Source: a virus
Virus record (IMG/VR): IMGVR_UViG_3300048793_000037
Coordinates: 1 to 48,799 of that record
DNA length: 48,799 nucleotides
Reading direction: 5' to 3' (one strand)
Below the pieces are notes generated by a model that made no database searches, was not told the origin of the DNA, and saw only the letters and a program-made list of their open reading frames with translations. The position numbers and the translations under genes were made by a program. This document shows, one piece after another, positions 1 to 48,799 of the stretch; positions within the stretch are counted from its first letter, which is position 1, and every line of letters starts with the position of its first letter.

Positions 1-87
1 TATCGGGGCGAGTGGATCCACGTTGCTGACCTGGCACCGGCGTACGTCGGTGCGATCGTGCTCCACGAAGACCAGTTCGCAAAGTAA
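1..87 (+). CDS. 3' end of the C39-like cysteine peptidase gene (continues from the other end of the circle)
   Basis: The first 87 bases encode 28 residues (starting YRGEWIHVADL) and a TAA stop. They are identical to the C-terminus of the peptidase encoded at 47707-48252. The reading frame is open from base 1, so this is a contig-edge fragment and not a separate gene. The complete copy lies at the right end of the window. Confidence 0.9.
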   Translation, partial: YRGEWIHVADLAPAYVGAIVLHEDQFAK

Positions 88-507
88 GGAGGACGCATGT
101 CACGAACCAGCGATCTCACAACGGCCATCGCCCAGGACATCAAGTACGCCCTGGGCCTCGTCAGCTTGGGCAAAGACCCGACGTTCTGGCTCGAGCGGGC
201 TGCGGGCTACGCCAGCGAGCTCGTCGGTGCCGACGTACCAGCGGCCGCACCCGCCGCGCCGACCCTGCTCCCACCTGCAGGCGGCGATCCGCTTCTTATT
301 CCGACCGAACCAGACGGCCAGATGGGCACGATCCTGGGCGGCAAGAAGGTCAGCAAGGCGGCCATCCTCGATGCCACCTCGATCGCGGCCGTGAACGCGG
401 GCAATCCGCCGCTGGCTGAGGCTGCACCGTACGCCGGTCAGGCGCTCAAGGAGACGCTCAACCAGGTCATCAGCTCGACCAGCGCCGCTGACGGCCGAGA
501 CATCGTA
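1..507. repeat. 507-base direct repeat, copy B of a tandem pair across the circle junction
   Basis: Positions 1-507 are repeated at 48166-48672, immediately before the circle junction, and the first 127 bases recur at 48673-48799. The unit starts inside the 3' part of the C39-like peptidase gene and ends inside the downstream 169-aa gene. It is 169 codons long, so the duplication stays in frame. It could be a real tandem duplication, joined direct terminal repeats of a linear genome, or an assembly effect. Confidence 0.95.
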
Positions 508-606
508 TTCAGTGTCTTCCACGACGGGGTCTGCGTCGCGGTTGTCCACGGCGACACGAGCACGGACACGGGTGCCCTGGCGCAGCAGTACGGACTGCCC
601 CAGTGA
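97..606 (+). CDS. Hypothetical 169-aa protein downstream of the lysin candidate
   Basis: I do not recognise the family. The ATG follows GGAGG at 88-92, close upstream. The N-terminal half is a mixed helical region, followed by an Ala/Pro-rich linker (about residues 45-65). After that comes a compact region containing LGGKKVSKAAILDATSIAAV and a C-terminal segment beginning FSVFHDGVCVAVVHG. No signal peptide or transmembrane segment is evident. It lies between the C39-like peptidase and two holin-like membrane genes, so a lysis or late-structural role is possible but unproven. A truncated, fused copy is present at 48262-48759. Confidence 0.75.
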   Translation: MSRTSDLTTAIAQDIKYALGLVSLGKDPTFWLERAAGYASELVGADVPAAAPAAPTLLPPAGGDPLLIPTEPDGQMGTILGGKKVSKAAILDATSIAAVNAGNPPLAEAAPYAGQALKETLNQVISSTSAADGRDIVFSVFHDGVCVAVVHGDTSTDTGALAQQYGLPQ

Positions 607-878
607 TCCTCGGACGGCCGGTCAATATGGCGGTCGCACTCATCGGCGGCATCTTCAACGTCTTGATCGCGTTCAACGTGGGCGGGTTCAACCCAACGGC
701 CGTCCAGATCGGCGTGGTCAACATCCTGATCCTGGCTGTGGTCGGCTTCGTCGCCTGGTCGCCGCCAACCCTCAATCCGGGCGACAAGATCAACGTCGTT
801 TCCCCAAGTCCAGCCCCGAATCAGGTCCAGGTCGTCGCGGTCAATCCGCCGGTTCCAACCCGCACGAAGGTGGCCTAA
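603..878 (+). CDS. Small two-TM membrane protein, holin candidate
   Basis: The 91-aa product starts at GTG 603, overlapping the preceding TGA by GTGA; ATG 627 is an alternative start giving 83 aa. Two hydrophobic segments are visible, around residues 9-26 (MAVALIGGIFNVLIAFNV) and 37-53 (IGVVNILILAVVGFVAW). A Pro/Val-rich hydrophilic tail follows, ending in TRTKVA. Size, two-helix topology and position one gene after the lysin candidate fit a class II-type holin. No diagnostic motif exists for holins, so the call rests on topology and context. Confidence 0.6.
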   Translation: MILGRPVNMAVALIGGIFNVLIAFNVGGFNPTAVQIGVVNILILAVVGFVAWSPPTLNPGDKINVVSPSPAPNQVQVVAVNPPVPTRTKVA

Positions 879-2370: not shown

Positions 2371-2613
2371 GTGAGCACCTGGGGGTTGTTCGTGGTCGAC
2401 CCGGGCGTCGCGCCGCCTCGGTGCCCTCCGGCTGGACACCGGGAGACGCACGTGGCGCCCTGCGACGAGACAGGACTCCTGCTGCCGACGCACCTCCTGT
2501 ATGCGGGCTGCCCATGCCGGCCGGCGGTGGTTCGGGATGGCCCGCTGGACGACCCGATCTTCAGCCACATGGAGCCGACGCATCCGGGCGCCGACCAGGT
2601 GCTCGCGTCGTGA
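2371..2613 (+). CDS. 80-aa Cys/His-rich small protein
   Basis: GTG 2371 is the likely start, four bases after the preceding stop; an ATG at 2299 would overlap the upstream gene heavily. The product contains CPPAGHRETH, matching the Cys-x4-His-x3-His knuckle found elsewhere in this genome. A CPCRP motif and further His residues follow (HMEPTHPG). Zinc binding is inferred from the residue pattern only. Start and coding status are less certain than for longer genes. Confidence 0.5.
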   Translation: MSTWGLFVVDPGVAPPRCPPAGHRETHVAPCDETGLLLPTHLLYAGCPCRPAVVRDGPLDDPIFSHMEPTHPGADQVLAS

Positions 2614-2992: not shown

Positions 2993-3252
2993 TGCCTGAC
3001 GTTCACTACCCCCATGGCTTTACCTGCTCCGAGTGTGGCCTGACCCATCCAGCGGGCCATTTCGAGGCGACCGATAGCTTCGCGCACGATCAGCGATGGC
3101 GCGCGGCCTACGATAGGTGGGCTTCTCGACCGGAGTCTCGACGGCCTCTGTCTCTGCCGCCCGACTCCACATTTGAGACAGACCTCCGGGCCGCACTGGA
3201 GGAAGCTCGGTGGCAGGCGTGGTGCGAGTACGCCGGTTGGCCGTGGTGCTAA
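2992..3252 (+). CDS. 86-aa CxxC-containing hypothetical protein
   Basis: ATG 2992 overlaps the HNH stop. The N-terminus has CSECGLTHPAGHFEA, a CxxC pair followed by two His residues, suggesting a metal site. The rest is Trp/Arg-rich and helical, ending in a CEYAGWPWC segment. It is the last rightward gene before the convergent leftward operon, and its stop overlaps the FtsK-like gene's stop by four bases. Family unknown. Confidence 0.55.
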   Translation: MPDVHYPHGFTCSECGLTHPAGHFEATDSFAHDQRWRAAYDRWASRPESRRPLSLPPDSTFETDLRAALEEARWQAWCEYAGWPWC

Positions 3253-4472
3253 TGGACGAACATCCCCACCACCGCCAGGAAGGCCCGCGCTCCGAGCCCC
3301 AGCTCAACGGGTGCCGTAGCCTTGCCGGCGAGGTTTGCAATGCGGTACGGGATCACCTCGGGCGCCGGACCCTGCGCCCGCCAGTGGTCGGCCAGGGCAT
3401 TGATCTCGCGGTCACTGACATAGACGCCTTGCAGCCGGATCGGATGCGGCGCCGTGGCGGGCTGATAGAGCATGTCGCCCCGACCGACGAGATCCTCCGC
3501 GCCGGCACTGTCGAGGATCGTCCGGGAGTCGACGTTGCTGGTCATGGCGAAGGCAATCCTCGCGGGAAAGTTGGCTTTGATCGTGCCGGTCACGACGTTG
3601 ACCGACGGGCGCTGAGTGGCGAGGATCAGGTGGATCCCGGTCGCCCGCGCCTTCTGGGCGAGCCTGGTCAAGGGCAGCTCGAGACCCTTGCCGCGCATGA
3701 CCAGATCGGCCAGCTCATCGACCACCACGACGATATAGGGCAGCCGCTCATGGCCGGCGTTGTAGGCCTCGAGGTTGCGCACCTCGGCGCCGGCGAGGAG
3801 GGCGTAGCGGCGCTCCATCTCGGCGACCAGCCAGCCAAGCGCGGCCTTGGCGTCGGCGGGTTCGGTGATGACCGGGCCGAGCAGCTGCGGGATGTCGTGG
3901 TAGGCCGCGAGCTCAACACGCTTCATGTCGACGAGCAGCAGGCGCAGCTCGGCCGGGCTTGTGCGCAGGAGCAGGCTGGACAGGATCGCGTTGACCATGA
4001 CCGACTTGCCGGAACCGGTCGCGCCCGCGATCAGCAGGTGAGGCATGCCCGCGAGATCGCCCGAGCGGATGATGCCCGCGACATCGGCCCCCAGCGGGAT
4101 CGTCAGGGTCGAGGCAGCAGGGCCGATGGCGGCTTGGCGCAGGGTAACGACGGCCGGGCGCGCGTTCGGGACCTCGATGCCGACCGCATGCCGTCCAGCA
4201 ATCGGAACCTCCACCCGGACGGAAGCCGCAGCGAGGGCCACGGCGAGATCCGGCGCGACCAGGCGGATCCTCGAGACCCGCGTACCTGGGGCCGGTTCGA
4301 TCTCGTAGCGGGTGACCACGGGCCCGACCTCGGCGCGCCTGACCGTCACCGGCAGGCCCAGCGCCTCGAGCGTGTCCGTGATCGTCACGAAGGCCGCGGC
4401 GATCCCATCGACGCCGCTAGCAGGCACGGCAGCGTCCAGCAGATCGAGCGGGGGCAGCGTCCAGGCGTTCAT
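3249..4472 (-). CDS. FtsK/SpoIIIE-type DNA translocase motor protein
   Basis: The 407-aa product has an N-terminal region resembling the FtsK alpha domain (residues about 35-110, RYEIEPAPGT and onward). A RecA-like beta domain follows, with Walker A GATGSGKS at 150-157 and Walker B IVVVVDELADL around 247-257. An ATQRPSVNVVTG stretch is typical of the family. It lacks the four-helix N-terminal membrane anchor and the C-terminal gamma winged helix of chromosomal FtsK; the short C-terminus (ARAFLAVVGMFV) is hydrophobic. FtsK motors pump double-stranded DNA as hexamers. In phages and actinobacterial mobile elements they are linked to DNA transfer, resolution or partitioning. It is the last gene of the leftward operon. 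Confidence 0.92.
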   Translation of the reverse strand: MNAWTLPPLDLLDAAVPASGVDGIAAAFVTITDTLEALGLPVTVRRAEVGPVVTRYEIEPAPGTRVSRIRLVAPDLAVALAAASVRVEVPIAGRHAVGIEVPNARPAVVTLRQAAIGPAASTLTIPLGADVAGIIRSGDLAGMPHLLIAGATGSGKSVMVNAILSSLLLRTSPAELRLLLVDMKRVELAAYHDIPQLLGPVITEPADAKAALGWLVAEMERRYALLAGAEVRNLEAYNAGHERLPYIVVVVDELADLVMRGKGLELPLTRLAQKARATGIHLILATQRPSVNVVTGTIKANFPARIAFAMTSNVDSRTILDSAGAEDLVGRGDMLYQPATAPHPIRLQGVYVSDREINALADHWRAQGPAPEVIPYRIANLAGKATAPVELGLGARAFLAVVGMFVH

Positions 4473-4475
4473 GGT

Positions 4476-4778
4476 TCAGCGCTGCCATTCGGCGCGGCCG
4501 AGCAGGCTGGACCGGAGCAGGTAGATATAGCGGGCGGAGCTCCAGGACTTGCGCCGGGCCTCGACCGTCCAGCGCATCCACGCGCCGACGTACTGGACGT
4601 GGACCTGATAGCCGTCGATCGCGTCGGCGGCCGCCGCGGCGTCCTCGCGGTACAGGAACGTCCGCACGCTCGTGACGGGCTCGGGTCCATCGGGCCCGAC
4701 CTTGTGGCCGATCGGGCGGCGCGTCCAGGTGCGGCCGTCGGCGTCGCGGGTGAAGTTGGGGCGGGTCTCGGTCGTCAT
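4476..4778 (-). CDS. 100-aa hypothetical protein
   Basis: The ATG at 4778 is preceded by GAGGAT, and the stop lies three bases before the FtsK-like start. The sequence (MTTETRPNFTRDADGRTWTR and onward) is basic and aromatic-rich, with a helical middle (REDAAAAADAIDG) and a C-terminal Arg/Ser/Tyr-rich segment. No membrane segment or known motif is evident. Tight linkage to the FtsK-like motor suggests joint function, but nothing more can be said. Confidence 0.65.
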   Translation of the reverse strand: MTTETRPNFTRDADGRTWTRRPIGHKVGPDGPEPVTSVRTFLYREDAAAAADAIDGYQVHVQYVGAWMRWTVEARRKSWSSARYIYLLRSSLLGRAEWQR

Positions 4779-4824
4779 CGTTCGGATCCTCTAGCTTCTC
4801 GATCGGCTCACAATCGGCCGGCCG

Positions 4825-4851
4825 CTGTAGAGGCGCACTCGGCCCCTACAG
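4825..4851. other. Intergenic hairpin between two leftward genes
   Basis: CTGTAGAGG (4825-4833) pairs with CCCCTACAG (4843-4851) except for one mismatch, leaving a 9-nt loop. It lies just after the stop of the 103-aa gene on the minus strand. It could slow transcription or stabilise an mRNA end; there is no T-run for a classical terminator. Confidence 0.5.
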
Positions 4852-4863
4852 TGGCGGGCGGAG
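4845..4863. repeat. Repeated intergenic element, copy 1
   Basis: CCTACAGTGGCGGGCGGAG here matches a 19-base stretch at 5832-5850 at 16 of 19 positions. Both copies lie just after the stop codon of a leftward gene, and this one overlaps the right arm of the hairpin at 4825-4851. Confidence 0.55.
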
Positions 4864-4865
4864 TG

Positions 4866-5177
4866 TCAATCCCAGTACGGCTCGCCGATGCGCGACGGGA
4901 CGCGGCCCTCGGCGCGGTCGACGTACTCGGTCCGGTAATCCAGGCCGGCAGGGATCGAAACGCCTTGCTGGTGCACCTTGTCCAGCCCGAGCGCAGTCCC
5001 GAGCGTCGCTCGGTCGATGTCGTTCAGGCAGCCATATTCGGTGCGCCGGGCCGGCGGCGCGCTAATCCGAATCCAGCCCCAGGACGTCCCGCGGCCGCCG
5101 GTGACGGACCAGGCGCGGCCGGTCCGCCGGCGCAGGGCCGAGCGGATCGCGGCGATGGCGGAATCTCGATCGGTCAT
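4866..5177 (-). CDS. 103-aa conserved hypothetical of actinobacterial mobile-element type
   Basis: The ATG at 5177 lies three bases after the DUF3560-like stop. The product has a Ser/Arg-rich start (IRSALRRRTGRAWSVTGGRG), then TSWGWIRISAPPARR and a C-terminal VHQQGVSIPAGLDYRTEYVD-type block. From memory, this arrangement occurs in uncharacterised proteins of Streptomyces-like elements and cyanobacteria, often beside DUF3560 proteins. No enzymatic motif is visible. Function is unknown; the operon context suggests a DNA-handling or plasmid-like role. Confidence 0.7.
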   Translation of the reverse strand: MTDRDSAIAAIRSALRRRTGRAWSVTGGRGTSWGWIRISAPPARRTEYGCLNDIDRATLGTALGLDKVHQQGVSIPAGLDYRTEYVDRAEGRVPSRIGEPYWD

Positions 5178-5180
5178 GGC

Positions 5181-5765
5181 TTAGGCTCCCTTCAGCGCGG
5201 CGAGCCGCTCGCGCTGCTTGCTGATGCTGCCGGACAGGTTCCCGGTCGCGTAGGCCGGGAACGCGCCGTCGGCCCGCAGCTGGTACGGGCAGTGGCGCGC
5301 GATACTGGCCAGATCGGCCCGCTGGCGGTCGTCCAGCAGCGCAAGGTCGCCGACGTGCTGGGCCGGATCGGCCTTGTGCGCCTTGCGAGCGCTCGCGTTG
5401 TAGGCGGTAATCCGGGCGCGTTCGGCCTCGAGTTCGGCGATCCGCTCGGCCAGGCGCGCGACGGCGTCCGGATCGTCGGAATAGATCGCGTGTCCGGCGG
5501 CCGCCTCGATGTTGTCGGCTCGCGAGCGCATGGCCGCGGCCTTGTCGGCGTGGTCTATCCCGGCGCGCATGCCGGCGTGGATCCGGTCCTGATCGCGCCG
5601 AGCTCGGCGCTCCGAATGGTGGCCGACGAGGATCGGCTGGCCGAACGGGATTCCATCCGCGATCGCATCGACCGCGGCGAAGCTCGCCGAGCTCCGGATC
5701 TCGCGCTTGTCGGCCCATCCGCGCAAGCGCTCGGCTCGAGCGGCTCGACGATCTCGATAGGTCAT
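5181..5765 (-). CDS. DUF3560-like protein
   Basis: The 194-aa product begins MTYRDRRAARAERLRGWADK, continues with the hallmark IPFGQPILVGHHSERRARRD, then HADKAAAMRSRADNIEAAAG. A long charged helix follows (DPDAVARLAERIAELEAERA and KAYNAS-like ITAYNASARK). These blocks match the DUF3560 family as I remember it; those proteins are found in plasmids and phages and are of unknown function. The ATG is preceded by AGGAGGATC. The His-His pair and basic character hint at nucleic-acid binding, which is inference. Confidence 0.85.
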   Translation of the reverse strand: MTYRDRRAARAERLRGWADKREIRSSASFAAVDAIADGIPFGQPILVGHHSERRARRDQDRIHAGMRAGIDHADKAAAMRSRADNIEAAAGHAIYSDDPDAVARLAERIAELEAERARITAYNASARKAHKADPAQHVGDLALLDDRQRADLASIARHCPYQLRADGAFPAYATGNLSGSISKQRERLAALKGA

Positions 5766-5831
5766 CTCGATGATCCTCCTGATACGGTGGTCGGTCGGTC
5801 GACCGGCCGCGGAGGACGCCGACTGCCGGCG

Positions 5832-5850
5832 CCTACCGTGGCGGGTGGAA
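5832..5850. repeat. Repeated intergenic element, copy 2
   Basis: This 19-base stretch (CCTACCGTGGCGGGTGGAA) is the partner of the element at 4845-4863. It lies directly after the stop of the 714-aa gene on the minus strand, between it and the DUF3560-like gene. The shared position after stops suggests a functional intergenic element or a spread repeat. Confidence 0.55.
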
Positions 5851-5852
5851 CG

Positions 5853-7997
5853 CTAGACGGCCGCCAGGACGGCCGACCGCGCGCCGGCGGCGCAGTCGGG
5901 CCGCTTGACGCGATGCCACTCGGCGCCGGCACCGGATTGGCGGAACGTCTGCCCGCATCGGGCGCACGTCGGCCGGCTGGACGGCTGGACAACGGTCAGG
6001 ACGGGCGCCAGGACGGCCGGAGCGGGCGCCAGGGCAAGGTAAGCGGCGATCTGCTCGGCGCGGTACTGCGCCTCAACCTCGGCGCGCTGCTCTGGCGTTC
6101 CGATGTCCGGCCGTATCCACTGGTACGGCGCCAGGATGAGACCGGCCGGAACGTCCAGGACGGCCGGAGCGGGCTGGACGGCCTCGGGCTCGACTACGGG
6201 CGCCAGGACGGCCGGAGCGGGCTCGGGCGCCGTGTCGGGATAGCGGTGCGCGCCGTCGTGGCCATCGAGTCCGGCATTGCACCGGATGGGCGGGACGCCG
6301 TTCGTGTGCAGGTAGAAGTAGCAGGGCTGGACGGTCGGATAGTGGTGCGCGCCCTTGTGACCGATGGGGCCTGCATCGCACGCTTCATCGCCTACGGTGT
6401 ACAGGCAAGGCTGGACGGGCTCGTCGATTGCCTCGAGCTCGACTACGGGCTCGTGGTGCACGTAGACGGCATGTGGGCCCGGATGGCCGGTCGTGCCAGC
6501 CGTGCACTGGCTCGAGCCGATGGTAACGGCGCAAGCGTTCCAGGCCTCGACCGGCGCGTCCAGGACCGGCGCGACGGGCTCCGGCTCGGCGATGGGCGCC
6601 GGAGCGTCCAGGACCGGCGCCGGCACGATGTCAACGTGCCGGTACTCGGCGACCGTGGTACCGCTAACGATGACCGCGACGGCCTCGGGCTCGGCGACTA
6701 CGGGCGCGCCGACCGCGTGCATGCGACAAGCGGCCGCCGGCGTGCAATCTCCGCGCCGGTAGTCGACCGAACAGTCTCGGCCGGTGCGCGCGACGGGCGC
6801 GCCGGCCGGCTGGACGGGCGCAAGCGGGCCCGAGACCGGGATACCGTCAACGTACGTAGTCGCGCTGATATCGCGCGCCAGCTGGTACCCGTAGTCGTAT
6901 GGCGCGCCACAGATGACGCATGCGAGCCCCGGATACCAGTCCTGACCGCGTACGGTCGGCTGGTAGTCATGGGCGCACGGCTCGGCGACCACGTCCAGGA
7001 CGGGCGCCGGTGCATCGGCCGATGCGATCGGGCCCGATGCGGCCATAGCGGCCGCGGCCAGGTCGACCGTGGCATAGGTGTCAGTCTCGTACATCGACGC
7101 GTACGAGACTGGCCACCATTCTCGGCCGGCTCGTCGACCGTCCGTCATCACTGGGCGCGACAATGGCGCCCGGCAGACGCTCGAGCCGACGGTATAGACC
7201 TCGCAGAGACCGCCCTCGAGCGTCCAGGTATAGCCGAGATGCCCGGCCGAGCGCTCGGGCTCGGGCTGGACGTTCTGGACCGGCTCGGGCGCCTGTGCGA
7301 CGGTCAGGTCGACCACGTCCGCGCGGAGGACGGGCCGCAGGATGCCAATCCGGTCGAGCTCGCGACGTCGCGACGCGCGAATCGCGGGCGACGCCTTGCG
7401 AACCTTGACGGGCGCGACTACGGGCGCCGGATCGACGATGTATCCCGGGCTGGCCGGACCGGTGCAATACGTGCCGGCGCCGGCATTGTCGGCCGTGGCA
7501 GTTTCGAGCGGGCCCGCGGCGATGTACCGGATTCCGGCCGAGTCAGGAGCAGTCAACGCGCGACTACGGGCGCCGTTCTGCTTGCGAGCGTAGAGCTCGG
7601 CCGACATCCGCGCGACTGCTGCCCGGTCCTCGGCGGAGCGCTCGGGCGCGGGCCCGCCCATCCCGTGCAGGTGGATGGGATAGGACGAGCCACAGAAGGC
7701 CGTATTAGCCTTCCGGCATACCGGCTGGACGACTGGCGCGCCGTTCTGGTAGTCGATGGGAATCTCCCAGCGCGCATGCGATCCGTCAGCCGGCCGAGCC
7801 GCGGAGCGCTCGAGCTCGAGCGTATGGTGCTCGGCGGCCGCTGCTACCAGATGGTCGGCAAACGCGCGCATATCCTCCGCGCGCCCGGGCTCATCGTCGA
7901 TGCAAAGCCAGCCGTTCGAGGGGTAGGCGTGCGGGACGTGCGTGGTGCATGGTGCGTGCTTCGCGCCGGTGGGCATCTTGTGGTAGGTGGTGGCCAT
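5853..7997 (-). CDS. 714-aa multi-knuckle Cys/His protein with Ala/Pro/Val linkers
   Basis: ATG 7997 is chosen over the one at 8042 because GGAGGA lies 8 nt upstream and the upstream residues overlap the promoter. The N-terminal ~200 residues contain scattered Cys/His. The middle has degenerate Cys pairs. Residues roughly 430-600 carry three clear knuckles: CTAGTTGHPGPH, CDAGPIGHKGAH and CNAGLDGHDGAH, each with an upstream Cys. The C-terminus has CARCGQTFRQSG and EWHRVKRPDC, a zinc-finger-like end. Linkers are rich in APVLDAP- and EPEP-type segments. Multiple metal knuckles on flexible linkers suggest a scaffold binding nucleic acid or protein. It is the first gene of the leftward operon. No homologous family is recognised. 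Confidence 0.8.
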   Translation of the reverse strand: MATTYHKMPTGAKHAPCTTHVPHAYPSNGWLCIDDEPGRAEDMRAFADHLVAAAAEHHTLELERSAARPADGSHARWEIPIDYQNGAPVVQPVCRKANTAFCGSSYPIHLHGMGGPAPERSAEDRAAVARMSAELYARKQNGARSRALTAPDSAGIRYIAAGPLETATADNAGAGTYCTGPASPGYIVDPAPVVAPVKVRKASPAIRASRRRELDRIGILRPVLRADVVDLTVAQAPEPVQNVQPEPERSAGHLGYTWTLEGGLCEVYTVGSSVCRAPLSRPVMTDGRRAGREWWPVSYASMYETDTYATVDLAAAAMAASGPIASADAPAPVLDVVAEPCAHDYQPTVRGQDWYPGLACVICGAPYDYGYQLARDISATTYVDGIPVSGPLAPVQPAGAPVARTGRDCSVDYRRGDCTPAAACRMHAVGAPVVAEPEAVAVIVSGTTVAEYRHVDIVPAPVLDAPAPIAEPEPVAPVLDAPVEAWNACAVTIGSSQCTAGTTGHPGPHAVYVHHEPVVELEAIDEPVQPCLYTVGDEACDAGPIGHKGAHHYPTVQPCYFYLHTNGVPPIRCNAGLDGHDGAHRYPDTAPEPAPAVLAPVVEPEAVQPAPAVLDVPAGLILAPYQWIRPDIGTPEQRAEVEAQYRAEQIAAYLALAPAPAVLAPVLTVVQPSSRPTCARCGQTFRQSGAGAEWHRVKRPDCAAGARSAVLAAV

Positions 7998-8033
7998 GGG
8001 TGGTCCTCCGTGTGGTGCGAACGTAGTGATACC

Positions 8034-8062
8034 ACCATACACCTGCCAGGACCACTGTCAAG
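8034..8062 (-). promoter_or_regulatory. Sigma-70-type promoter for the leftward operon
   Basis: On the minus strand TTGACA (8062-8057) is followed after 17 bases by TATGGT (8039-8034). This places the start near 8027, about 30 nt before ATG 7997 with its own GGAGGA site. The -35 is a perfect consensus. Confidence 0.75.
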
Positions 8063-34667: not shown

Positions 34668-34691
34668 GTACACCGGACCGTCCCCTACCCT
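34662..34691 (+). promoter_or_regulatory. Early rightward promoter, probable leaderless start
   Basis: TTGACA (34662-34667), an 18-base spacer and TACCCT (34686-34691) place +1 near 34698, immediately before ATG 34699. The geometry matches the promoter at 8358-8330. Confidence 0.65.
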
Positions 34692-34709
34692 ACCAGACAT
34701 GACATCAGG
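34691..34709. repeat. 19-bp direct repeat at a gene start, copy 1
   Basis: TACCAGACATGACATCAGG spans the ATG of the 102-aa gene and recurs exactly at 34996-35014, across the ATG of the XRE-like gene. Both proteins therefore begin MTSG. Confidence 0.9.
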
Positions 34710-35007
34710 TTGGTTCAACAGGCCCTACGCCAGGTGCGGGATCTACGATCCGGAGTCCGGCGAGTCGTGCCTTCTGGGACCGGCCCACCCCGGCTTCCAC
34801 AAGACTAACCACCATGCGTGGCCGAATGAGCGAGACACCCTCGATTGGGCCGCGATCGGCCGGGACATCCTGCTCGGCAGGACCGTCCCCTTCTACTCTG
34901 CCCGCGAACTCGACTACGCCATCGAAGCGGCCGGCGGCTGGGCCAACGCGAAACGTATTCGCGACGCCTTCCTCGACTCCAGCGCGGAACGCGCGTACCA
35001 GACATGA
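34699..35007 (+). CDS. 102-aa knuckle protein upstream of the XRE regulator
   Basis: ATG 34699 follows a promoter directly, without a Shine-Dalgarno. The N-terminus (MTSGWFNRPYARCGIYDPES) leads into CLLGPAHPGFHK, a Cys-x5-His-x3-His knuckle with an upstream Cys at 13. The rest is helical (LDYAIEAAGGWANAKRIRDA). It overlaps the HTH gene by ATGA. It may be a zinc-dependent DNA- or protein-binding early protein. Confidence 0.7.
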   Translation: MTSGWFNRPYARCGIYDPESGESCLLGPAHPGFHKTNHHAWPNERDTLDWAAIGRDILLGRTVPFYSARELDYAIEAAGGWANAKRIRDAFLDSSAERAYQT

Positions 35008-35014
35008 CATCAGG
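34996..35014. repeat. 19-bp direct repeat at a gene start, copy 2
   Basis: Exact second copy of the 34691-34709 element, over the ATG of the XRE-like gene. It may be a repeated operator or a relic of duplication. Confidence 0.9.
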
Positions 35015-35195
35015 CGACACGCTCCGGGATCTGCGGATCAAGCTCGGTCTCACCCAGCAGCAGGTTGCCGATCGCGCTGGGTGGAAGAACCGGGCGATGG
35101 TCAGCCAGCTCGAGAAGCGCTCCGAAGTTCCGCCCGGCTCCGAGAGCCGATACGTCAAGGCCCTGTCCATTGAGCCTGATAAAACGCCGGGTTGA
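35004..35195 (+). CDS. XRE/Cro-like helix-turn-helix protein
   Basis: ATG 35004 overlaps the previous stop (ATGA). The 63-aa product has LRDLRIKLGLTQQQVADRAG then NRAMVSQLEKR, a classical XRE HTH with LTQQQVA as the first helix and a short C-terminal tail. Its size is that of Cro-like or minimal repressors. It could bind the TTGACA palindrome just upstream. It lies in the early region before recombination genes. Confidence 0.85.
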   Translation: MTSGDTLRDLRIKLGLTQQQVADRAGWKNRAMVSQLEKRSEVPPGSESRYVKALSIEPDKTPG

Positions 35196-35221
35196 CAGTC
35201 CGGTGCGGTTAGGGGTAGTTT
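35192..35221 (+). promoter_or_regulatory. Promoter candidate before the recombination genes
   Basis: TTGACA (35192-35197), 18 bases, then TAGTTT (35216-35221). The -35 overlaps the stop of the XRE gene. Transcripts would start near 35228 and carry a ~110-nt leader. Confidence 0.55.
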
Positions 35222-35244
35222 AGCAACACACGCGGCAGTTGCTA
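35221..35244 (+). other. Leader hairpin downstream of the early promoter
   Basis: TAGCAAC (35221-35227) pairs with GTTGCTA (35238-35244) around a 10-nt loop. It overlaps the -10 and probable +1 region, so it may be an operator on DNA rather than an RNA hairpin. Nothing further is recognisable between 35245 and 35338. Confidence 0.45.
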
Positions 35245-35338
35245 CCGAGAACGTAAGTTGTGTCGCGTTGGTAGAGAGGCGTGGACTCTAGTGCAGTCCC
35301 TCACGACCGACAGTCGGGACTTCCGAGTCGCTTCGGTT

Positions 35339-35491
35339 ATGTCTCGTTCCGCCGACGAAATCTGGCGCGACTACGCCGCAGCCGAGCGCCGCGCCGACCG
35401 CTCCCGTGAACGTGGTGACCGTGCCGGCGAGCTGATTGCCTCCGGGCAAGCCGCGCACTGGTTCGCCGAGTGGCTGGCGACGTCGCTGTGA
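35339..35491 (+). CDS. 50-aa charged helical protein
   Basis: ATG 35339 gives MSRSADEIWRDYAAAERRAD then SRERGDRAGELIASGQAAHW, a strongly charged helix. Its stop overlaps the next GTG. Small helical proteins of this type are common in phage early regions. Function unknown. Confidence 0.55.
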   Translation: MSRSADEIWRDYAAAERRADRSRERGDRAGELIASGQAAHWFAEWLATSL

Positions 35492-35631
35492 ACCTGCTCG
35501 CAGCGATCTTTCTAATCACCGGCGCGACCGCGGCGCTGACGCTCCTCGGCCTAGCGCTGATGGTTGCCCTCGACGGTTGGGACGCGCGGCGAGACGCGCG
35601 GCGTAGAAACCAAGCCCGACGCGTTCGATGA
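35488..35631 (+). CDS. 47-aa single-TM mini-protein
   Basis: GTG 35488 overlaps the preceding stop. A hydrophobic segment (LLAAIFLITGATAALTLLGL) is followed by a strongly basic tail (DARRDARRRNQARRVR). The stop overlaps the YqaJ ATG. It could be a membrane-associated early protein. Evidence is the double overlap and hydrophobic pattern. Confidence 0.5.
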   Translation: MNLLAAIFLITGATAALTLLGLALMVALDGWDARRDARRRNQARRVR

Positions 35632-36653
35632 CCGCGCTCGCAACGCCCTATGTCCAAGGGACTGAGGCTTGGCTCGAGGCGCGGCTCGACGGGATCGGCT
35701 CCAGCGACGCTCCGGTGATCGCTGGCGAACGCGGCTCGATCATCGAACTCTGGGCACTCAAGACACGCCAACTTGAGCCCGAGCCACCGGACCCCGACCT
35801 CGCCCGGCTCTTTGAGTGGGGCCATCGGCTTGAGCCCGTGATCGCCGCCTGGTACAGCGATGCGACGGAGCGTCCTCTCCGCCGCGTGAACCGGATGCTC
35901 GTCCATCCACGGTTCCCCTGGGCCTTCGCTTCGCTCGATCGCGTCTCGGCGCGCAAGGGCGAGCGCCGGATCGTCGAGATCAAGACGAACCGCTGGGGCT
36001 GGGCCGGCGACGAGGCCGTGCCGGGCGCGGTCCAGGCCCAGGTGCAACATCAGATGTGGGTCGCCGGTTACGACGTGGCCGATGTCGTGGTCCTGACCGG
36101 CGGCTCGGAGCCGCAGATCGTCGAAGTCCCCCGCGACGACGAGTACATCGACAACCTGACGTACGTCGAAGCGAACTTCTGGGGCCACGTCACGAGTAAG
36201 ACGACGCCCAAGGCCGACGGCTCGGAGAACACCCGCCGGGCGCTCGCTCGGATGCACCCGCGTGACGACGGGACGTGGCTGGTAGCTACGCGAGAACTGG
36301 TCGAGCTCGGCCGGCAACTCCGCGATGCACGCCTCGCCAAGAAGGAGGCGGAGGGCGCCGAGGGCACGGTCGCGAATGCGATCCTGGCAATCGTCAGGGA
36401 GGCCAGTGGGATTGAGGGAGTCCTGAGCCTCAAGCGCACGAAGGACTCCGTCGTCACCCGGATCAACTGGCCGGCCGTGGCGTCTGGCTACCGGGCGCTC
36501 CTCGACGACATCGCCGGTGTCGGGTGTCAGCACCTCACTCAGGCAGAGCGCGAGCGCGCGCTCCCGAGCCTCGATGCCGTCGAGGCCGTCCACACCCAAT
36601 CCGAGACCGCGGAGGGCTATAGGTCCATCCGCCTGTTGAAGGAGAGCACATGA
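35628..36653 (+). CDS. YqaJ-type exonuclease
   Basis: The 341-aa product shows the lambda-exonuclease/YqaJ pattern: TEAWLEARLDGIGSSDAPVI, then FEWGHRLEPVIAAWY (Glu69), WAFASLDRVS (Asp104), and RRIVEIKTNRWGWAG (Glu117-x-Lys119), with QAQVQHQMWVAG downstream. These are the PD-(D/E)XK catalytic residues of 5'-3' exonucleases that produce 3' single-stranded tails. It overlaps the RecT gene by ATGA, forming a two-gene single-strand annealing system for recombination-dependent replication. Confidence 0.92.
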   Translation: MTALATPYVQGTEAWLEARLDGIGSSDAPVIAGERGSIIELWALKTRQLEPEPPDPDLARLFEWGHRLEPVIAAWYSDATERPLRRVNRMLVHPRFPWAFASLDRVSARKGERRIVEIKTNRWGWAGDEAVPGAVQAQVQHQMWVAGYDVADVVVLTGGSEPQIVEVPRDDEYIDNLTYVEANFWGHVTSKTTPKADGSENTRRALARMHPRDDGTWLVATRELVELGRQLRDARLAKKEAEGAEGTVANAILAIVREASGIEGVLSLKRTKDSVVTRINWPAVASGYRALLDDIAGVGCQHLTQAERERALPSLDAVEAVHTQSETAEGYRSIRLLKEST

Positions 36654-37552
36654 CTACCGATACCCGGATTGCCACGACGAGCGCGGTCGATCCACAGATC
36701 ACGGGAGCCATGGCCGTGTTCGACCGGCTGGCACCGCTCAAGAGCGCACTCGGCATCGACAAGTTGACCGAGCCCGAGCTCCAACTGTTCGCGATGGTCG
36801 CGTACCAGACCGGGCTCGACCCATTCACGAAGCAGATTTACGCGATCAAGCGTGGCGGCAAGGTGACCCACCAGACCGGGATTGACGGCTACCGAACCGT
36901 GGCCGAGTCAAAGACGGGCCAGTACGCCGGATCAGATGAGGCGACCTACGAGGAATGCACCTGCGGCGAGAAAGACTCGCCCGTCCAGCATCCGGCTGTC
37001 GCCCGCGTCACGGTCCATCGGATCCTGCCCGGCGGTCATGTCGTCGATCAGGTCGGCGTCGCCCGCTGGCACGAACTCAAGCCGAACCACACGAAGCGCG
37101 ACTACGGCTACGACGACGACATGTGGTGGCGGATGCCGTTCAACCAGCTCGCCAAGTGCGCTGAGGCCAACGGCTTGCGCAAGGCGTTCCCGCGGGTGCT
37201 GGGCGGCATCTACATCGAAGAGGAGATGCAGCAGGCGGGGCCCGGTGAGAACCCGGCGCTGGTGGCTGCGGCGGCGCAGCCAACGGCCCGCGAGCGGATG
37301 GCAGCGCGCCGCGAGGCGGTCGAGCAGACGGACCCGGTCGTGGTTATCGAAGCGGGGCGCGCTGAGACCGCCGTCGACCCGGTCACGGTCGAGAACAGCC
37401 AGACGCCGGCAGAGGCGCTTTCGTGTGGCGACGTGGCCGGCGATGGGATCTCGGCCGGCGAGGTCTGCGGCCGGATGGCTGGCCATCCAGGCGTGCACAA
37501 AAACTCCGCCGCATCCGCCTCCTGGCCCCGCACGGCGGCCGAGGCGAAGTAA
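36650..37552 (+). CDS. recT: RecT/Bet-type single-strand annealing protein with C-terminal knuckle
   Basis: The 300-aa product has MAVFDRLAPLKSALGIDKLT, LQLFAMVAYQTGLDPFTKQI, YAIKRGGKVTHQTGIDGYRT and WWRMPFNQLAKCAEANGLRK, matching Redbeta/RecT annealases. The C-terminal ~50 residues add CGDVAGDGISAGEVCGRMAG then HPGVHK, the same Cys-x5-His-x3-His knuckle as in other proteins here. RecT anneals complementary strands with the YqaJ exonuclease. The knuckle is unusual for the family and may recruit a partner such as SSB. Confidence 0.93.
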   Translation: MTTDTRIATTSAVDPQITGAMAVFDRLAPLKSALGIDKLTEPELQLFAMVAYQTGLDPFTKQIYAIKRGGKVTHQTGIDGYRTVAESKTGQYAGSDEATYEECTCGEKDSPVQHPAVARVTVHRILPGGHVVDQVGVARWHELKPNHTKRDYGYDDDMWWRMPFNQLAKCAEANGLRKAFPRVLGGIYIEEEMQQAGPGENPALVAAAAQPTARERMAARREAVEQTDPVVVIEAGRAETAVDPVTVENSQTPAEALSCGDVAGDGISAGEVCGRMAGHPGVHKNSAASASWPRTAAEAK

Positions 37553-37583
37553 CCCGCCCGATCGGGGCACCAGGAGGACGCAA

Positions 37584-38033
37584 ATGGCAGTCGAGACGAA
37601 GGTCACAAACACGCGTGCCGCGCAGCGGTCGGCCTTGATCGAGGAGATCGCCGTCGCGCTCAAGGCGCTAGCCGTCCCGATCGAAGGCGGTCCGCTCGAC
37701 GGGATCGAGGTCGTCAGCCTCGGCAGCGTCAAGGAGGCGCTGCTCGAGGTCGGACAGGCCGAGTTGCCGCGTCTGAGTGAGACGAAGGCTAAGGCGAGCT
37801 CGCGGGCGCACATCTGCGGGCAACTGTCCCTCGGCGTCGATCCAGTGGAGGGTCAGGACTCATTCAAGCTCGAGGACATCACCGGCGGCGCGACCGAGCC
37901 CGCTGACGGCGAGGACGCGGACGTTGCCACCGAGGAGACGACCTCGGTCGAGATGTGCCCGCATCCAAAGTGCCTGCTCCCTGCGGAACACCGTGGTCGG
38001 CACGAGATCCTCAAGGACGGCGACGAGGCGTGA
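37584..38033 (+). CDS. 149-aa protein with C-terminal knuckle
   Basis: ATG 37584 follows AGGAGG. The N-terminus is helical (QRSALIEEIAVALKALAVPI), and the C-terminus has CPHPKCLLPAEHRGRHE, two Cys then His-x3-His. Its place after RecT suggests an annealing or SSB-like partner, but it lacks an OB-fold signature. It overlaps the next small gene by GTGA. Confidence 0.7.
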   Translation: MAVETKVTNTRAAQRSALIEEIAVALKALAVPIEGGPLDGIEVVSLGSVKEALLEVGQAELPRLSETKAKASSRAHICGQLSLGVDPVEGQDSFKLEDITGGATEPADGEDADVATEETTSVEMCPHPKCLLPAEHRGRHEILKDGDEA

Positions 38034-38768: not shown

Positions 38769-39053
38769 ATGAGCGAGCTCAACTGTGAGTGGGCGGTCCG
38801 AGGCGAACACTGCGGCGAGCCGACAGCCAGAGTATCGACGAGAGCGGACACCAAACGCCCCATTCCTACATGTGAGACCCACGAAGCCCGTGCCCGCCGA
38901 TACGGCTTCGCGGTTGTTCGCGCCCAGACGTGGACCCGTCCATGCGCCTGCGGGCTCGATATCCGGGCACCGCGTGACGAGCCCCGAGATTGGGTTCAGG
39001 CCCACAACCAGACCTGGCAGCACATGGCGTGGCGCGGACGGAACGGGCTGTGA
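38769..39053 (+). CDS. 94-aa Cys-rich protein
   Basis: ATG 38769 follows GAGGAGGAAG. The product has CEWAVRGEHCGEPTARVSTR, a later CETHEARARRYGF and CACGLDIR, giving at least two metal sites. It resembles small zinc proteins of phage early regions. It lies just before the replication-initiator-like gene. Confidence 0.65.
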   Translation: MSELNCEWAVRGEHCGEPTARVSTRADTKRPIPTCETHEARARRYGFAVVRAQTWTRPCACGLDIRAPRDEPRDWVQAHNQTWQHMAWRGRNGL

Positions 39054-47710: not shown

Positions 47711-48252
47711 GCCACTTCCTGCCCCGCTACATCACCGAGCGGATCGGGCCGCCACCGTGGGACGACTGTGTGTTGTGCTCGGGGCTCATGCTTGCCAACA
47801 AGGCCAGCCACAACGCCAAGCCGGCCACGCCGGCCGAGGTCCTGGCGCTGCGGGCGGCGTCGCTCGCATCGCCCCACGGCAACGTCACCTTCCCGCAGCT
47901 CGCCCATGCCTATCTCACGCGCTACGGCTGGCACGTCTCGCTGGCGAGCCCGACCACGGCCGAGGCGCTCTATGCAGGACTGCTCGACGGTTCCGGTGCG
48001 ATCGTCGTCTTGAACATGGGCAAGATGCCGGTCCATTTCCGGCGCTTCGATCCGACCTTCGTCCTCACGCACGCCTGCTACGTCCAGATCAGCGACGGAG
48101 CGGCGGCGACCGACCACGGCGCGTTCTGGCTCGTCAACCCGATGGCACCAAAGCTAGTCCCAGCGTATCGGGGCGAGTGGATCCACGTTGCTGACCTGGC
48201 ACCGGCGTACGTCGGTGCGATCGTGCTCCACGAAGACCAGTTCGCAAAGTAA
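47707..48252 (+). CDS. C39-like cysteine peptidase (candidate endolysin)
   Basis: The 181-aa product has a Cys-rich start (WDDCVLCSGLMLANKASHN; Cys21 or Cys24 as nucleophile), LTRYGWHVSLASPTTAEALY, THACYVQISDG (His122) and WLVNPMAPK (Asn144), the Cys-His-Asn/Asp order of C39-type papain-like peptidases. In phages such enzymes can cut peptidoglycan cross-links. The gene follows the tailspike and precedes holin-like genes, which supports a lysin role. The stop is repeated at 85-87 through the circle. Confidence 0.75.
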   Translation: MSHFLPRYITERIGPPPWDDCVLCSGLMLANKASHNAKPATPAEVLALRAASLASPHGNVTFPQLAHAYLTRYGWHVSLASPTTAEALYAGLLDGSGAIVVLNMGKMPVHFRRFDPTFVLTHACYVQISDGAAATDHGAFWLVNPMAPKLVPAYRGEWIHVADLAPAYVGAIVLHEDQFAK

Positions 48253-48672
48253 GGAGGACGCATGTCACGAACCAGCGATCTCACAACGGCCATCGCCCAG
48301 GACATCAAGTACGCCCTGGGCCTCGTCAGCTTGGGCAAAGACCCGACGTTCTGGCTCGAGCGGGCTGCGGGCTACGCCAGCGAGCTCGTCGGTGCCGACG
48401 TACCAGCGGCCGCACCCGCCGCGCCGACCCTGCTCCCACCTGCAGGCGGCGATCCGCTTCTTATTCCGACCGAACCAGACGGCCAGATGGGCACGATCCT
48501 GGGCGGCAAGAAGGTCAGCAAGGCGGCCATCCTCGATGCCACCTCGATCGCGGCCGTGAACGCGGGCAATCCGCCGCTGGCTGAGGCTGCACCGTACGCC
48601 GGTCAGGCGCTCAAGGAGACGCTCAACCAGGTCATCAGCTCGACCAGCGCCGCTGACGGCCGAGACATCGTA
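48166..48672. repeat. 507-base direct repeat, copy A
   Basis: Copy of positions 1-507. The junction at 48672/48673 joins the middle of the 169-aa gene back to the middle of the peptidase gene. Confidence 0.95.
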
Positions 48673-48759
48673 TATCGGGGCGAGTGGATCCACGTTGCTG
48701 ACCTGGCACCGGCGTACGTCGGTGCGATCGTGCTCCACGAAGACCAGTTCGCAAAGTAA
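48262..48759 (+). CDS. Chimeric copy: first ~136 aa of the 169-aa protein fused to the peptidase C-terminus
   Basis: The first ~136 codons match 97-504 and then read IVYRGEWIHVADLAP, the peptidase tail, ending at the TAA at 48757-48759. The fusion is in frame because the repeat is 507 bases. It is real only if the tandem duplication is real; otherwise it is an assembly product. Confidence 0.6.
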   Translation: MSRTSDLTTAIAQDIKYALGLVSLGKDPTFWLERAAGYASELVGADVPAAAPAAPTLLPPAGGDPLLIPTEPDGQMGTILGGKKVSKAAILDATSIAAVNAGNPPLAEAAPYAGQALKETLNQVISSTSAADGRDIVYRGEWIHVADLAPAYVGAIVLHEDQFAK

Positions 48760-48799
48760 GGAGGACGCATGTCACGAACCAGCGATCTCACAACGGCCA
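48673..48799. repeat. 127-base terminal overlap with the left end
   Basis: Positions 48673-48799 equal 1-127. The length equals a common maximum k-mer size, so this is probably the assembler's circle overlap and not biology. It includes the start of a further partial copy of the 169-aa gene (from 48769). Confidence 0.85.

Follow-up and report, generated by a model that had tools for sequence, protein, structure and literature searches.

A short Cys/His finger on RecT and unrelated phage and bacterial proteins, probably a zinc-binding docking tail

A 48.8-kb virus record from IMG/VR (IMGVR_UViG_3300048793_000037, positions 1-48,799; this whole stretch is called the window below) encodes six copies of a short finger rich in cysteine and histidine, one of them at the C-terminus of the RecT single-strand annealing protein. 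The finger is spread over otherwise unrelated proteins of other phages and of bacteria. We propose that it is a very small autonomous accessory module with two cysteine and two histidine ligands (CCHH), which would bind zinc, spread between proteins and probably serve as a docking tail. Judging from sequence comparisons, we give this reading a probability of about 60%. The large terminase subunit encoded in the window is similar to its counterparts in Streptomyces, Mycobacterium and Gordonia phages.

Six copies of one layout in the window

In the window, the finger has the layout C-x(4-14)-C-x5-H-x-G-x-H, with x6 instead of x5 in all three copies of an open reading frame (ORF) of 714 amino acids (aa). 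The other copies stand singly in the gene starting at 34699 (CLLGPAHPGFH), at the C-terminus of RecT (CGRMAGHPGVH) and at the end of the gene starting at 37584 (CLLPAEHRGRH). The spacer between the two cysteines has 4–14 residues, mostly 8–13. The middle glycine of HxGxH is present in 6/6 copies and is thus a part of the motif; all six match the membership pattern C-x(3-18)-C-x(5,6)-H-x-G-x-H. Every finger gene lies in its own best coding frame, and a sequence resembling a ribosome-binding site precedes RecT, the 37584 gene and the 714-aa ORF. A first-pass annotation of this DNA had described the peptides as Cys-x(4-6)-His-x3-His with an upstream cysteine. The peptides exist and the upstream cysteine is found in all six copies, but the formula hid the glycine within x3. 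It had also included CPPAGHRETH of the 2371 gene (2422..2451, plus strand, Cys codon at 2422). We rejected this peptide as a member, since it has neither the glycine nor the upstream cysteine.

It turned out that the six copies are far above chance. In 2000 residue shuffles of the 497 six-frame ORFs, the full layout occurred 0.15 times on average and at most 3 times. Four permuted layouts (reversed, with cysteine and histidine swapped, or with the glycine moved) gave 0 matches each in the window. The shared module that the first-pass annotation had seen in several proteins, the RecT tail among them, has therefore passed the comparison with background frequency. It could be argued that Cys/His-rich reading frames arise by chance in GC-rich DNA: the loose layout C-x4-6-H-x3-H is fairly common at random (14 observed and 4.1 expected in shuffled window ORFs), and some scan matches sit in frames of non-coding appearance. 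However, the counts for the full and permuted layouts and the retention of the finger in relatives of RecT refute this explanation for the six copies. We consider it negligible in general and the best reading for the 2371 peptide only.

We also searched other genomes. Nine actinophage genomes (463 kb), picked by terminase or RecT similarity and blind to the motif, gave 3 matches, and only one of them, in Gordonia phage Ewald (L377), was convincing. Five other phage genomes gave 1 match, which was spurious. Across 60 Actinomycetota genomes, the strict DNA pattern matched 3 times, so the motif is not abundant in that sample.

RecT tails and the spread of the finger

Close relatives of the window RecT were found in four contigs, two of which (L004 and L005) share one RecT. 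The RecT of L002 (62% identical) ends in the finger CGWRVETKVGLVDCTLAEMHEGQH, and that of L004/L005 (54% identical) ends in the finger CGNPSPYGDGESCGLPSSHRGLH, both behind a diverged linker. The C, C, H, G and H are all kept in these tails. In the RecT of L003 (L003:10001-10909), the core of which is 65% identical, a different Cys/His ribbon CPKGHGPMAVSNWGGWWCRTKDCKEK replaces the finger. This ribbon looks by eye like those of the topoisomerase type. The finger in some RecT proteins and the other ribbon in L003 suggest that the tail is a slot for an exchangeable module, which probably binds metal. Apart from RecT, L002 has a gene just before RecE (L002:8581-9018) that combines a region resembling a helix-turn-helix (HTH) with the finger in one protein, the HTH match being weak. 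A near-miss finger, CGAWMVRVKERCARRPRHGTPH, is also present in this contig at L002:11503-11871.

The distribution of the finger was assessed by a scan of viral contigs with the pattern CxxPxGHxGxH, which gave matches in at least 120 stretches. Among the 125 matches listed, 82% have an upstream cysteine within 18 residues, and 69% have in addition a coding-like codon composition. For a decoy with the second glycine moved by one codon, these values were 47% and 33%, and the decoy itself is not fully clean, as some PxGHxxGH matches may be genuine variants. A complete scan with the narrower pattern CxxPAGHDGxH found 45 viral contigs, with the upstream cysteine in 37/46 matches. Together, 96 fingers give the consensus C-[GP]-x(4-17)-C-x-[LR]-P-x-G-H-[DE]-G-x-H, and a tryptophan often follows 6–11 residues further; in the window RecT, a tryptophan stands 9 residues past the finger CGDVAGDGISAGEVCGRMAGHPGVH. 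C, C, H, G and H are invariant in this set by selection, while mean column identity is 18%. For most members, the search pattern also imposed the proline and the C-x5-H spacing. However, a looser pattern that allowed x4 or x5 found extra fingers in the neighbourhood, and all of these have C-x5-H. Many fingers lie no more than about 30 residues from the C-terminus, often behind a linker that is acidic or of low complexity, and some are tandem.

The carriers are otherwise unrelated proteins. In the bacterial Fic protein L143 (PDB 7cb8, E=8.5e-32), the finger forms the last residues, and L169 and L180 were recognized by eye, from the HPFxDGNGR motif, as bacterial Fic proteins ending in the finger. 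One finger of these three proteins, CGAWLPRAGRSCHLPRGHRGQHR, stands directly at the stop codon. The scan of bacterial genomes also found the finger on a terminase large subunit (L240; 6z6d, E=9.6e-32). Three carriers (L164, L174 and L242) look by eye like P-loop ATPases, which a PDB search did not confirm. Further carriers belong to the TauD, methyltransferase, HNH and DNA polymerase families. One conserved protein with the finger CGAESDEGVFCRVPGGHEGSH recurred in the genome scan (L139, L170, L245, L246, L249 and L251); L139 and L170 are from Amycolatopsis.

Among curated libraries, no zinc-finger family of Pfam or NCBIfam matched the finger at E up to 5, even when full-length carriers were used, and a search of the open literature for the motif letters and named phage fingers found nothing relevant. 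PHROGs touches the finger mostly in scattered families of unknown function. The finger of Gordonia phage Ailee matches positions 270-307 of phrog_21374 (E=5e-11) and phrog_33110 (E=6e-4), both of unknown function, and the window RecT tail matches them weakly (0.0056 and 0.019). However, these are families of particular phage proteins and not domain models, and neither covers the set of fingers. Classical C2H2 fingers are C-x2-4-C-x12-H-x3-5-H, and the CCHC knuckle is C-x2-C-x4-H-x4-C. Our finger, C-x(4-17)-C-x5-H-x-G-x-H, shares with both that four Cys/His ligands stand close together, and with C2H2 the last two histidines three residues apart, but it fits neither: it differs from C2H2 in its spacing, and from CCHC by the long spacer between cysteines and by ending in two histidines. 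Topoisomerase-type zinc ribbons and Zf-GRF are likewise small C-terminal Cys/His modules on proteins of DNA metabolism, but their ligands are C4 or CHCC. Our best reading of the finger is a CCHH module not described so far, for which the curated domain libraries searched contain no entry.

Gene neighbourhood of the carriers

The positions of the finger genes and of their neighbours are collected in Table 1. The window RecT is assigned to the RecT/Red-beta group by a RecT domain score above the curated cut-off and by the adjacent gene of the partner exonuclease. Relatives of the 34699, 37584 and 714-aa proteins were not detected in viral contigs by searches that reach close relatives only.

Table 1. 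Finger genes and adjacent features in the window.
Feature	Position	Strand	Finger or sequence	Basis and remarks
102-aa protein (34699 gene)	34699..35007	+	N-terminal, CGIYDPESGESCLLGPAHPGFH, 34735-34800, then HHAW	best coding frame of six
RecT single-strand annealing protein, 300 aa	36650..37552	+	C-terminal, CGDVAGDGISAGEVCGRMAGHPGVH, 37424-37498	PF03837 E=3.1e-20, 73 bits (curated cut-off 24); phrog_2780 8.4e-38
149-aa protein, function unassigned (37584 gene)	37584..38033	+	C-terminal, CPHPKCLLPAEHRGRH, 37956-38003	strong coding signal; upstream GGAGG site
714-aa ORF, Cys/His-rich	5853..7997	-	three tandem x6 fingers, 6533-6471, 6407-6345, 6323-6246	best coding frame; GGAGG site upstream of ATG 7997
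RecE/YqaJ-type exonuclease	35628..36653	+	no finger	directly upstream of RecT; PF09588 E=1.9e-25, phrog_434 1.1e-64
Small HTH (XRE-type) protein	35004..35195	+		overlaps end of 34699 gene; PF13560 4e-7
19-bp direct repeat, copy 1	34691..34709	+	TACCAGACATGACATCAGG	over start codon of 34699 gene
19-bp direct repeat, copy 2	34996..35014	+		over 34699 stop and HTH gene start

The 19-bp repeats are perfect, stand 305 bp apart and bound exactly the 34699 finger gene. The window has no further copy of them, and such a repeat is expected 0.01 times by chance. The repeat was not found in other viral contigs. This 305-bp unit looks like a possible route of finger gain, either as a gained cassette or as a duplicated start region.

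The 714-aa ORF runs from ATG 7997 to the stop at 5853 and would have 729 aa if begun at an upstream GTG. Besides the three fingers, it contains further Cys/His clusters (CVICG; C-x8-C-x5-C-x2-H; CARCG...H...C). On the minus strand, it shares the block 3249-8042 with an FtsK/SpoIIIE ATPase (PF01580, PF17854) and a DUF3560 protein (PF12083), while most genes of the window are on the opposite strand. The block may be a plasmid-like module within a genome of the siphovirus type. A 94-aa protein at 38769-39053 has a related-looking CCCH layout (CEWAVRGEHCGEP...CETH). The two ends of the window (1-634 and 48166-48799) are similar over about 0.6 kb and not identical, so the record is probably circular or a terminally redundant genome with some variation.

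What the finger may do

The four invariant Cys/His ligands, the fixed C-x5-H-x3-H half and the variable loop suit a small zinc site. Most likely, the two cysteines and two histidines would hold one zinc ion, with the second cysteine and HxGxH as a fixed knuckle and the first cysteine closing a loop of variable length. Such a module would pass between unrelated proteins, many of which have it as their C-terminal tail and some in tandem. In the case of RecT, it would most likely be a docking tail that brings the annealing protein to a partner. A known parallel is the C-terminal domain of lambda Red-beta, which binds the exonuclease and the single-strand DNA-binding protein (SSB) and is dispensable for DNA binding (PMC8303780). 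The parallel lies in a C-terminal docking domain on a RecT/Red-beta annealing protein; the domain of Red-beta is a three-helix bundle and has no common layout with the Cys/His finger. The fingers are slightly acidic, with a mean net charge of -0.6 and aspartate or glutamate (D/E) at 32% of the two variable positions of HxGxH. This is mild evidence for docking to a protein over binding of nucleic acid, and we hold the choice of a protein as the target with less confidence than zinc binding.

Several observations weigh against a zinc-binding docking tail. More distant relatives of RecT have no Cys/His tail, so the finger is dispensable for RecT function in general. The x6 spacing of the 714-aa copies is rare elsewhere. 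Two AlphaFold models, which hold no zinc, are of low confidence, with a mean predicted local distance difference test score (pLDDT) of 51 for the RecT-tail finger with 95 others and of 57 for a short finger with 47 others. There is no solved relative: among PDB sequences, the finger profile found at best an AP-lyase chain (5u6z) at a non-significant E=2.2. Finally, the fusion of the finger with an HTH-like region in L002 and the ribbon-like tail in L003 fit DNA binding equally well.

It is possible, though doubtful in our opinion, that the finger itself binds nucleic acids, as a small module which gives RecT, HTH, terminase and HNH proteins additional affinity for single-stranded DNA, double-stranded DNA or RNA. 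Several carriers do act on DNA (RecT, terminase, HTH-like, HNH and DNA polymerase families), and the Cys/His tail of the L003 RecT stands at the same position as the finger. However, the acidity of the fingers speaks against this function, and the known chemistry of carriers of the Fic and TauD types is not directed at DNA. A purely structural zinc, by which the finger would only cap or stabilize otherwise disordered ends and have no partner, seems rather unlikely to us. It would agree with the frequent position near the C-terminus, with the very variable spacer and with the lack of conserved surface residues besides the ligands, glycine, proline and tryptophan, but the recurrence of the finger on unrelated proteins and its tandem arrays suggest selection beyond the capping of ends.

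The first-pass annotation had proposed a single common partner, for which the 714-aa protein could be a candidate, and to which the fingers would recruit early proteins of this phage. It is indeed exceptional to find six copies in one genome, and three or four fingers per genome occur in other phages (G009, G010 and G013), for some of them in neighbouring genes, which would fit a shared partner. However, the carriers vary by genome, and the finger is present in many phages and on bacterial Fic and ATPase-like proteins, while searches of viral contigs that reach close relatives only found no homologue of the 714-aa protein. Therefore, this protein is hardly the general partner of the finger; assembly of the early proteins on one such hub is unsupported, and we consider it very improbable. 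A broader speculation, also unlikely, is a common targeting tail by which both phages and bacteria direct RecT, terminase, Fic and ATPase proteins to a single conserved factor of the host, where finger-rich phages such as this one would concentrate their own proteins.

A zinc-binding docking tail remains our preferred explanation. The finger is a short Cys/His module on carriers that range from a recombinase and a terminase to Fic enzymes, and it has no Pfam or NCBIfam model; such a domain model would link a part of the pool of phage proteins annotated as hypothetical. RecT proteins serve in genome engineering, and their pairing with the host SSB limits the usable hosts. The RecT tail offers a testable role for the finger.

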